A stretch of 64,000 bases of DNA from Tessaracoccus lapidicaptus (GTDB taxonomy: Bacteria > Actinomycetota > Actinomycetes > Propionibacteriales > Propionibacteriaceae). The stretch is taken from assembly GCF_001693815.1 (NCBI RefSeq), contig NZ_MBQD01000003.1, positions 1 through 64,000 of the forward strand. Reading direction: 5' to 3'. The notes under the pieces were generated by a model. That model worked only from the letters and a program-made list of their open reading frames with translations. It was not told where the DNA came from and did not search any database. Position numbers and translations under genes: made by a program. Positions 13,554 through 61,505 of this stretch are shown piece by piece. Numbering within the stretch: position 1 is the first letter of the stretch; each line of letters starts with the position of its first letter.

Positions 13554-15803
13554 TCACCCCAGGAGGAGGGCGAGCAGCTCCGTCGCGTCAGCCTTGTCCA
13601 GCACCTGGTTGGCGTTGCCGCACTTCGGTGAGACGACGCACGCCGGGCAACCGGTGTCGCATCGGCAGGAGCCGAGACGCTCCAGGGTGGCGGCGAGCCA
13701 GCGTTCGGCGACCTCGAACCCGCGCTGCGCGAATCCGGCCCCGCCCTCCATCCCGTCGTGCACGAAGATGGTGGCGAGACCCGTGTCGGGGTGCAGGGCC
13801 GTGCTCACACCGCCGATGTCCCACCGGTCGCACGGCGCGAAGGCCGGCAGCAGGCCGATGGCCGTGTGCTCCATGGCGTGCGCCGCGGCACCCATCTGGA
13901 GCTCGGTCCAGCCGAGGCGGCTCGCCACGTGGGCGGGCACCGTCCACCACACCGCCTGGGTGGTCAGGCGGCGGTTCGGCAGGTCCAGCGGGGTCGAGTC
14001 CCACACCTCGTGCGTGACTTCGTCGCGGCGCAGGTACGCCAGCACCCGCGAGTCCAGGCACACGTCGCCGCGCACGACCTCGGTGATGCCCACGGCCCGT
14101 CGCTCGGTCTCGCGCACGATCGCGATATCGAACGACGCCTGGGCCTGCGTGTAGTACCGCGGCCTGCTGGCCACCACCAGCGCCTGACGCTCCTCCCGGT
14201 CCAGGGTCTCGACCGTGAACGTCTCCCCCTGATGCAGGTACACCGCCCCCGGGTGCACCGTCCGGTCCGCGGCCGCGGCGTCGACCATTCCGACGACGCG
14301 CCCGGTGTCCCGTTCGATGATGTCGATGGGCCGCTCCCCCAGCGACCGCAGGTTGATGAAGTCGACCGCCCGGTCCGGGCGGGTCCAGTAGTAGCGCGCC
14401 CCCCTGTCCCGGAGCACGCCCTGCGCCGCGAGCGCCCGCGCCGCGGCCTGCATGGTGGGGCCGAACCACCGCTCATCCGCGGACGAGAGCGGCAGCTCCT
14501 GCGCTGCCGCGGCCAGGTGCGGGCCCAGGACCCGGGGATTGTCCGGGTGCAGGACCGCACGCTCGACGGGGGCGTCGAAGACGAGCTCAGGATGGTCGAG
14601 CAGATACGTGTCGAGGGGATCCTCGCGCGCCAGGAGCAGCACCATTGCGTCCTGCCCGCGGCGTCCGGCGCGCCCGGCCTGCTGCCAGAACGACGACAGC
14701 CTCCCCGGGAAGCCCGAGACGAGCACGGCGTCCATGCCGGCGACGTCGACCCCGAGTTCGAGGGCGTTCGTGCTGGCCAGGCCACGCAGCCGTCCGCTGT
14801 GCAGCCCGGCTTCGAGGGCGCGGCGATCGTCGGCGAGGTAGCCGCCGCGGTAGCTCGCGATGCGGGTGGGCTCGGTGGCGAGCTCCTGGGCCGCCAGCGA
14901 CACCAGTTCCGCTCCCTGCCGCGAGGGGACGAACGCGATGGTCTGGGCTCCGGCGTCGGTCAGGCGGGCCAGGAGTTCCGCAGTGTCACTCCGCAGGGAC
15001 GACGACGGCCGCCAGAGCGCCACCGTGCGCCGGCCGTGGGGCGAGGCGTCCGTGTCCACGACGGTGACGTCGTCCACGCCGGCCAGCGCCGAGGCGAACT
15101 CGCCGGCATTGGGCGCGGTGGCCGACGACATGGCGACCACCGGCTCGGCGCCGTACTGGGCCGCGAGCCGCCGCAACCGTCTGAGCACCTGCGCGACGTG
15201 GGCGCCGAAGACCCCCTGGTAGCGGTGTGCCTCATCCACGACGATGTAGCGCAGGGAGCCGAGGAACGAGGCCCAGCGCTGGTGGGCCGGCAGCACCGAG
15301 AAGTGCAGCATGTCCGGATTGGTGAGGACCAGGTCCGCATGGTCGCGCGCGAAGCGGCGTTCCGCGGCGTCCGAGTCGCCGTCCAGGGTCCCCACCCGCC
15401 ACTTCTCGGGTCCGAGCGCCTGGGTCGCCCTGGCCTGGTCGTGCGCCAGCGCCTTGGTGGGGGCCAGGTACAGGGCGGTGTGCCGGGCCGCGGTCAGGCG
15501 GGCGCGGGTGGAGGTGACCGGCACCCCCAGCCTGCCCTCCGCCGTGGCCGCGATGATGGGAAGGAGGTAGCCAAGTGACTTGCCTGACCCGGTGGGGGTG
15601 CAGATGATCGCGTGGCGGCCGTGGAACAGCCGCTCGGCGAACTCCCGCTGATGCCGCCAGGGCGCAAGGATCCCGGCGGCCTCCAGGCGCGCGACGGCGC
15701 GGGCGGACAGCCAGTCGGGCCACGCGTCCGGTGCGCCGACGGCGGACTCGCGCACCGAAACGGCGGCCACTTCCTCTCGGCTCAGCAGACCCTCGTATCG
15801 CAC
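13554..15803 (-). CDS. mrfA: MrfA/Hrq1-type DEAD-box helicase with C-terminal zinc-binding domain
   Basis: This superfamily 2 helicase resembles mycobacterial Rv3649 and Bacillus MrfA, a repair factor for mitomycin-type DNA damage. It shows Walker A CTPTGSGKSLGYLLP, DEAH-type VVDEAHRYQG, SSATAPN, the helicase C-terminal LELGVDVAGMDAVLVSGFPG and QQAGRAGRRG. The C-terminal DUF1998 domain carries four cysteines (CRCDTGCPACVVSPKCGN) that probably bind zinc. The start is uncertain: the frame is open to a GTG at 15869, but that GTG overlaps the start of the divergent deacetylase gene, so I chose the GTG at 15803 (749 residues). It separates the two parts of the Tad locus. Confidence 0.88.
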   Translation of the reverse strand: MRYEGLLSREEVAAVSVRESAVGAPDAWPDWLSARAVARLEAAGILAPWRHQREFAERLFHGRHAIICTPTGSGKSLGYLLPIIAATAEGRLGVPVTSTRARLTAARHTALYLAPTKALAHDQARATQALGPEKWRVGTLDGDSDAAERRFARDHADLVLTNPDMLHFSVLPAHQRWASFLGSLRYIVVDEAHRYQGVFGAHVAQVLRRLRRLAAQYGAEPVVAMSSATAPNAGEFASALAGVDDVTVVDTDASPHGRRTVALWRPSSSLRSDTAELLARLTDAGAQTIAFVPSRQGAELVSLAAQELATEPTRIASYRGGYLADDRRALEAGLHSGRLRGLASTNALELGVDVAGMDAVLVSGFPGRLSSFWQQAGRAGRRGQDAMVLLLAREDPLDTYLLDHPELVFDAPVERAVLHPDNPRVLGPHLAAAAQELPLSSADERWFGPTMQAAARALAAQGVLRDRGARYYWTRPDRAVDFINLRSLGERPIDIIERDTGRVVGMVDAAAADRTVHPGAVYLHQGETFTVETLDREERQALVVASRPRYYTQAQASFDIAIVRETERRAVGITEVVRGDVCLDSRVLAYLRRDEVTHEVWDSTPLDLPNRRLTTQAVWWTVPAHVASRLGWTELQMGAAAHAMEHTAIGLLPAFAPCDRWDIGGVSTALHPDTGLATIFVHDGMEGGAGFAQRGFEVAERWLAATLERLGSCRCDTGCPACVVSPKCGNANQVLDKADATELLALLLG

Positions 15804-28367: not shown

Positions 28368-28441
28368 CGGGGTGTGGCGCAGCTTGGTAGCGCGCGTCGT
28401 TCGGGACGACGAGGCCGCAGGTTCAAATCCTGTCACCCCGA
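28368..28441 (+). tRNA. tRNA-Pro (anticodon CGG)
   Basis: The cloverleaf folds fully. The acceptor stem is CGGGGTG/CACCCCG with discriminator A. The D stem is GCGC/GCGC with loop AGCTTGGTA. The anticodon stem CGTCG/CGACG has loop TTCGGGA (anticodon CGG). The T arm is GCAGG-TTCAAAT-CCTGT. The 3' CCA is not encoded. The CGG anticodon reads CCG, the major Pro codon class in this GC-rich genome. Confidence 0.97.
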
Positions 28442-28705
28442 CGAAGGTCGAGAGAAATGGGCAAGCGCCCGTGGCTCTCGACTTTTTTCTTTCCGCAGAC
28501 TTGGCGCTTGTCCATTTCCGAGGCCGAGGAAGGGGTTGGAGGGACGAAGTCCCGGAACACCCCGACGAAGTCCGAGAGAAGTGAGCAAGCTCCCTTCCTC
28601 GGACTTGTTGCTTTCAGTGAGACTCGGAGCTTGTTCACTTCCGAGGACAAGGAGGGGGTTGGAGGGACGAAGTCCCGGAACACCCCGACGCAGACCGAGA
28701 CCGCC
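28434..28705 (+). repeat. Two tandem copies (plus a partial third) of a tRNA-tail-derived structured element
   Basis: Unit 1 (28434-28557, 124 bp) starts inside the tRNA 3' acceptor strand (CACCCCGACGAAG). Unit 2 (28558-28680, 123 bp) and a partial unit 3 (from 28681) start the same way. Each unit has a terminator-like stem; a 14-nt segment complementary to another 35-36 nt further on (28455-28468 with 28504-28517; 28579-28592 with 28627-28640); and an identical hairpin GGGAC-GAA-GTCCC near its 3' end. Between units the 14-bp helix differs at three positions and all three changes are compensated. The region from the tRNA to the next gene holds no plausible protein-coding gene. Confidence 0.8.
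28447..28488 (+). terminator. Intrinsic terminator of tRNA-Pro
   Basis: Stem GTCGAGAG (28447-28454) pairs with CTCTCGAC (28475-28482) and is followed by six T residues. The loop of about 20 nt contains a sequence complementary to a segment further downstream (28504-28517). Confidence 0.85.
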
Positions 28706-61335: not shown

Positions 61336-61369
61336 TTCCAGAGGCCAGACAATTCCAGGGCAAAGAAAA

Positions 61370-61460
61370 GGGCCCCTCGCGCACCCGGCAGAGCTCACTT
61401 ACCCTTGCTGCCTTCCGACCCTGGGGGGGTTGGGCGAGATACCGCCGCGCGAGGAACCTT
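61370..61460 (-). ncRNA. ffs: Signal recognition particle RNA (small, 4.5S type)
   Basis: On the minus strand the conserved domain IV loop GGGTCGGAAGGCAGCAAGGG is flanked by long complementary arms, ending with CCTCGCGC (61447-61454) paired to GCGCGAGG (61375-61382). A short T-rich run (CCCTTTTCTTT) at 61362-61372 marks the 3' end. Location next to dnaX is typical in actinobacteria. Ends are approximate. Confidence 0.92.
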
Positions 61461-61505
61461 CGCCAACCTTACCCCATGGAGGGACGGCTCCCGCCACTCC
61501 TGCCC

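Follow-up and report, generated by a model that had tools for sequence, protein, structure and literature searches.

The window, a stretch of 64,000 nt from Tessaracoccus lapidicaptus (contig NZ_MBQD01000003.1), contains two tandem copies of a small, structured element directly behind the gene for tRNA-Pro(CGG). We interpret these as copies of a non-autonomous mobile element whose most likely mode of movement is as single-stranded DNA, similar to the left end of IS200/IS605 elements, with an internal guide that would set the target (probability about 0.6). The mobility of the element is well supported, while guide-paired insertion is the mechanism that we infer from its anatomy.

Structure of the array behind tRNA-Pro

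The array consists of the following features, with coordinates given as positions in the window.

28368..28442 (+): tRNA-Pro (CGG anticodon), the host gene, targeted at its 3' end (ARAGORN; Rfam RF00005)
28434..28442 (+): left target site, copy 1 (CACCCCGAC), overlapping the 3' end of tRNA-Pro
28443..28557 (+): unit 1 of the element, in the long form
28446..28525 (+): hairpin 1 of unit 1, with helices P1 (28446-28449/28522-28525) and P2 (28454-28469/28503-28518) separated by a tandem GA/bulge motif
28444..28485 (+): local hairpin that unit 1 can form instead (arms 28444-28454/28475-28485), terminator-like, with a T-run on the 3' side; excludes P1/P2
28526..28531 (+): 3' extension GAGGAA (ext1-6) of unit 1, co-varying with site positions 7 and 9
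28532..28536 (+): guide GGGGT of unit 1, reverse complement of ACCCC in the left and right site
28541..28553 (+): hairpin 2 of unit 1, GGGAC-GAA-GTCCC
28558..28566 (+): second copy of the site (CACCCCGAC), shared by unit 1 (as its right site) and unit 2 (as its left site)
28567..28680 (+): unit 2 of the element, in the long form
28570..28648 (+): hairpin 1 of unit 2, with P1 (28570-28573/28645-28648) and P2 (28578-28593/28626-28641)
28655..28659 (+): guide GGGGT of unit 2, preceded by the 3' extension AAGGAG (28649-28654)
28664..28676 (+): hairpin 2 of unit 2
28681..28689 (+): third copy of the site (CACCCCGAC), closing the array on the right

An initial annotation of this DNA had described two units of 123-124 bp (28434-28557 and 28558-28680), both opening with the tRNA tail CACCCCGACG, and this division was borne out, with a third copy of the tail at 28681-28689. 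The 14-nt helices that it had placed at 28455-28468/28504-28517 and 28579-28592/28627-28640, with one G-T pair in the same place, were exact and both extend to 16 bp. The three helix differences between the two units are indeed all compensated, and their GGGAC-GAA-GTCCC hairpins are identical, as had been stated. Two features had been overlooked: a 4-bp helix (GGTC/GGCC, GTCC/GGAC) below the 16-bp helix, with a conserved GAGAG/CCGA junction, and the complementarity of the GGGGT segments (28532-28536; 28655-28659) to the tRNA tail on either side. The 272-nt stretch folds better than each of 200 dinucleotide shuffles (z -4.7).

The local hairpin at 28444-28485 had been suggested either to form a pseudoknot with the long helix or to exclude it. 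Mutual exclusion holds, in that the two folds share bases and both can form in all 14 long units from Tessaracoccus. The alternative fold is preferred over the pseudoknot, which is unlikely, because the short helix shares bases with the 16-bp helix and because its extra segment (28475-28485) is absent from the short form of the element that predominates elsewhere. In unit 1, this hairpin ends in a T-run and may stop transcription; it was not called as a terminator in a pattern scan.

Within this genome, units with a confident score were restricted to the two behind tRNA-Pro. A search against Rfam 15 gave nothing at the gathering threshold except tRNA and SRP RNA, the latter being a bacterial small SRP RNA (RF00169) at 61365-61461 on the minus strand. 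ARAGORN also called a 79-nt tRNA-Glu(CTC) at 14445-14523 on the minus strand, which had no Rfam support at the gathering score and is possibly a false call or a degenerate gene.

Units or remnants were identified behind tRNA-Pro(CGG) in seven of 39 Tessaracoccus genomes, among them Tessaracoccus caeni. Five of the seven contain 4, 3, 3, 2 and 2 units, one has a single short unit and one a decayed unit, and the remaining genomes have plain flanks behind the same tRNA-Pro. In the 14 full units from five genomes, seven pairs have changed on both sides and 97.9% of the cells pair, a level that none of 500 shuffles reached. The initial annotation had made its reading dependent on conservation of the pairing in related genomes; the pairing is conserved both in these 14 units and in relatives recovered elsewhere with covariance models.

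A dispersed family of elements

A covariance model was searched against genomes of the family, and a second model against genomes of the order and the class. Short relatives of about 80-90 nt, often in several copies each, were recovered from 50 of 198 family genomes, and the second model gave matches in 50 of 392 order genomes and 12 of 395 class genomes, in scattered genera and with a patchy distribution. Copy numbers reach more than 10 per genome. A pattern scan of named genomes gave many chance matches, and only those confirmed by the covariance model were kept. The units behind tRNA-Pro are a long form (about 115 nt) of this dispersed element of about 80-90 nt, which has a core of about 75-80 nt.

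The alignment comprises 194 copies from 57 actinobacterial genomes. The parts of the element are, in order, the site YACNNNNAC, G[C/A]AG, hairpin 1 (frequent tip GCTTGC), AAGGXA, a 5-nt guide NNNGT, TGA, hairpin 2 (frequent tip GCGAAGC), GAA and a second copy of the site. Changes on both sides were observed for 29 of 31 pairs (0 of 500 shuffles), with 94.6% paired as compared to 26-48% in slid controls; relatedness among copies inflates these counts, as well as those for guide and site given below, and the pair types nevertheless recur across many genera. The structural constraint proposed in the initial annotation was thus correct, and is far stronger than could be seen from the two units. 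The unpaired segments GAGNG, CCGAG and AAGG are also conserved, and the tetranucleotide before hairpin 1 is GCAG or GAAG in 78 of 114 cases and GTAG in one.

A few loci show deviating arrangements. In genomes G176 and G177 (L069, L181-L186, L223-L225), a larger dispersed palindrome (CCCTGCGGAGCACTGCGAG ... CTCGCAGGG) encloses the element, with some 20 copies in G176. At L075 and L214, hairpin 1 is lengthened by long inverted repeats to give elements of 178-183 nt, and in other actinomycetes (L269, L271, L282, L284-L290) pairable GATTGAGSCGAG / CGAGSCGATTGAAG segments replace the G[C/A]AG / AAGGXA junction.

The family, with members of about 80-125 bases, is apparently undescribed, and no description of it was found in the open-access literature. 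No phage or plasmid homologues of the units in the window were found by DNA similarity, and pattern scans of IMG/VR gave no matches at first and later five weak ones, which are probably due to chance.

Genomic locations and insertions into genes

The element begins inside the 3' end of a tRNA or tmRNA gene at 55 of 157 loci, with 11 kinds of host (tRNAs for Pro, Leu, Ser, Gln, His, Val, Ala, Cys, Gly and Phe, and tmRNA). At the tRNA loci it has the same sense as the tRNA, and the remaining loci are located inside or between genes, on either strand. Fourteen coding-like frames pass through an element, including that of an acyl transferase.

Two insertions into protein genes were analysed by comparison to relatives. 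The trpA gene of G179 contains an in-frame insert of net 81 bp, bordered by the short repeats GACCAC/GAGCAC, and the nadE gene of G146 one of net 84 bp, bordered by GTAGAC/GTACAC. The site is uninterrupted in more than 10 trpA relatives and in several nadE relatives that were read at the base level. A protein search with nadE gave two separate blocks, as expected from an empty site, in most of the 27 matching genomes, while the match runs across the insert in the relative G143. Since these sites are empty in relatives, the elements were inserted there, which argues against a purely RNA-level or tRNA-specific role. Likewise, the copies in and between genes in either orientation, including the in-frame inserts in trpA and nadE, indicate a mobile palindromic element rather than an RNA specific to tRNAs.

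The presence of one to four tandem copies at tRNA-Pro in some Tessaracoccus genomes and of none in others also counts in favor of mobility; no transposition event within one strain was observed, which counts against it. The initial annotation had left three options open, a small RNA, a tRNA-processing element and a mobile repeat that targets tRNA tails. The last is favored because the element is found also behind many other tRNAs and tmRNA, and in ordinary genes in both orientations; the other two find no support as a general function.

As for a hairpin required upstream of the site, there was no general enrichment and the mean fold energy was equal to that of the control. Elements at L065 (near 1501), L192 and L206 lie directly behind inverted repeats CTAGCACTC...GAGTGCTAG in their left flanks, which we take to resemble CIRCE, the HrcA operator.

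Coupling between guide and site

Each guide reads as the reverse complement of ACNNN in the site. With a model in which guide and site were not paired, the guide matched the left site at 224 of 234 variable positions (permutation mean 149, maximum 172 of 20000). In addition, site position 9 co-varies with ext3 as C-G or G-C (z 31.7), and site position 7 co-varies with X of AAGGXA as G-A, A-C or C-C (z 18), with no coupling of X to other site positions beyond that in shuffles. Because the bases before the guide track the site as well, about 8 nt of the site are represented in the element. Nearly all left copies of the site match the guide. An exact right copy is present in 40 of 75 tRNA-linked elements and in 28 of 119 others (control 4%), and right copies are often degenerate away from tRNAs.

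Among copies from the same genome with 80-90% core identity, 16 pairs, most of them from the single genome G179, have different guides, and both guides fully match their own sites in 13 of these. Copies that are more than 90% identical have kept the same guide (nine pairs). A hairpin-1 likeness of at least 0.8 was seen for 3.3% of the within-genome pairs with different sites, as compared to 0.6% of the between-genome pairs with the same site. The guide either takes part in the choice of target, with variants being selected, or is rewritten after insertion.

The hairpins contain 71 G.T pairs versus 14 A.C pairs on the plus strand, a count with some bias since the models were built on that strand. 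The plus strand probably acts in single-stranded form, because the hairpins tolerate G.T far more than A.C. The site-guide pairs are almost purely Watson-Crick, and G.T is nearly missing from them.

Proposed mechanism and alternative explanations

According to the mechanism that we propose, the element would insert just 3' of a short site, preferably at the 3' ends of tRNA and tmRNA genes, and end up flanked by copies of the site. The moving form would be single-stranded DNA of the plus strand, with hairpin 1 as the recognition structure for an HUH-type or similar enzyme. On the upstream side of the joint, about 8 nt of the target would base-pair with AAGGXA and the 5-nt guide, and the sequence of the element would thereby set its target. 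Tandem arrays could result from renewed insertion at the duplicated site or from unequal exchange. We judge guide-paired insertion of single-stranded DNA most likely because the order of the parts is that of IS608, namely target, tetranucleotide, hairpin, coupled extension and pairing segment.

More tentatively, the elements may form a natural class of mobile elements that lack genes and have a changeable DNA guide. A central segment would base-pair to about 8 nt of the target in either flank, and changes of the guide at new sites would allow a lineage to re-target across tRNA and protein genes.

No enzyme for the element was found. The Y1 transposase (PF01797) was absent from all 15 element-bearing genomes tested; Y1 transposases were identified in 19 of 195 Propionibacteriaceae genomes, and no elements were found beside the Y1 genes of the family. 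The loci L228-L257 hold Y1 tyrosine transposase genes with open frames of often 250-340 aa, a RAYT-like size. A target-primed model was rejected, since reverse transcriptase was found in 8 of 30 genomes, was missing from most of the element-rich ones and does not track the element.

Imperfect palindromes are hot spots of template-switch correction, and a mobile palindrome could therefore have inserted with a short target duplication, after which correction of its imperfect inverted repeats perfected guide and hairpins. The guide would then be a scar rather than a targeting device, as could be argued from the nearly pure Watson-Crick pairing of site and guide and from similar copies in the same genome whose different guides each match their own site. 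We consider this rather unlikely, although it is the alternative to which we give most weight: the coupling of position 7 to X is non-Watson-Crick (G with A, A with C, C with C) and would not be an outcome of templated correction, and the conserved GAGNG, CCGAG and AAGG segments are unpaired. It is improbable that the copies are REP elements mobilised by a RAYT (TnpA-REP). Their small size and dispersal, the bulged stem and the conserved G[C/A]AG at the position where REPs have GTAG would fit, but GTAG itself is lacking, the double-hairpin form is longer and the guide is variable. This explanation is already weakened by Y1 genes that neither flank elements nor occur in the element-rich genomes tested.

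Slightly less probable again is selection on the transcript of a structured RNA that belongs to the tRNA operon, be it a processing signal, a sponge or a small RNA. Such an RNA would account for the shared sense at tRNA loci, for the preference of G.T to A.C on the plus strand and for the terminator-like hairpin in all long units from Tessaracoccus, but not for copies of this element in and between protein genes on either strand. The patchy presence within the genus, a site-guide helix nearly without G.T and the lack of an Rfam match also speak against it. Direct repeats of the tRNA 3' end border each unit, as they would in an array of attachment sites left by a tyrosine-recombinase island at tRNA-Pro; such an origin is very improbable for gene-free units of 80-125 bp that occupy many unrelated sites with differing "cores" and contain matched internal guides, and no integrase-bearing version of the unit was seen.

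If the proposed mechanism is true, variable, guide-matched targeting by DNA pairing occurs naturally outside IS200/IS605, in an element of about 80 nt. The 3' ends of tRNA genes would then act as safe harbours, and new peptide segments could arise from in-frame insertions. The guide-site match also provides a directly testable handle on the spread of small palindromes that have no known transposase, a question shared with REP-like families.

Comparison with known systems

We know of no site-matched guide in the Rickettsia palindromic elements (RPEs) and of no guide-site coupling in the repetitive hairpin-forming elements of sponge mitochondria. Compared by description, RPEs resemble the element as palindromes of up to about 100 bp that are located in-frame in genes and were found in a tRNA spacer (PMC1950309). 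The element is likewise found in-frame in protein genes (trpA and nadE, whose sites are empty in relatives, and further frames including that of an acyl transferase), but in a different taxon and with a preference for tRNA 3' ends that is not described for RPEs (PMC1950309). The sponge elements are also short hairpin repeats considered mobile, but are organellar (PMC2800124).

REP/REPIN sequences and their RAYTs (PMC3733652, PMC8266576) share with the element small dispersed palindromes, a conserved tetranucleotide at the hairpin foot, some intragenic copies and heterogeneous, compensated stems; Actinobacteria are unmentioned in the survey of these systems (PMC3733652, PMC8266576). Unlike REPs and REPINs, the element is 80-125 nt long with two hairpins, a site-matched guide and a strong preference for tRNA 3' ends. 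The GTAG or CGTC tag is missing from its hairpin foot, and no RAYT gene has the repeats at its flanks.

Direct repeats of the site, of about 6-9 bp as in the element, are atypical of IS200/IS605, whose left and right sites differ. Where intact, the left and right sites of the element are the same, whereas IS200/IS605 elements lack a target duplication and have different left and right sites. A subterminal hairpin with guide bases that pair to the target is common to both, for the element as judged from co-variation alone. A Y1 HUH transposase (PF01797), in cis or elsewhere in the genome, was found in none of the 15 element-bearing genomes. Because there is no Y1 enzyme and the site is duplicated, we place the element outside IS200/IS605, despite ends that would work in a similar manner. 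In IS608, the cleavage site is chosen by bases 5' of the left hairpin, and those 3' of the hairpin engage in triplets with the cleavage-site pairing; insertion is redirected when the segment 3' of the hairpin is engineered to pair with the target (PMC5934647). The element resembles this left end (PMC5934647) in having a hairpin adjoining the joint, bases beside this hairpin that form pairs with target sequence upstream of the joint and an insertion point 3' of a short site. It differs from IS608 in having one central guide between two hairpins, a site on both sides and a set of targets that varies naturally from copy to copy.
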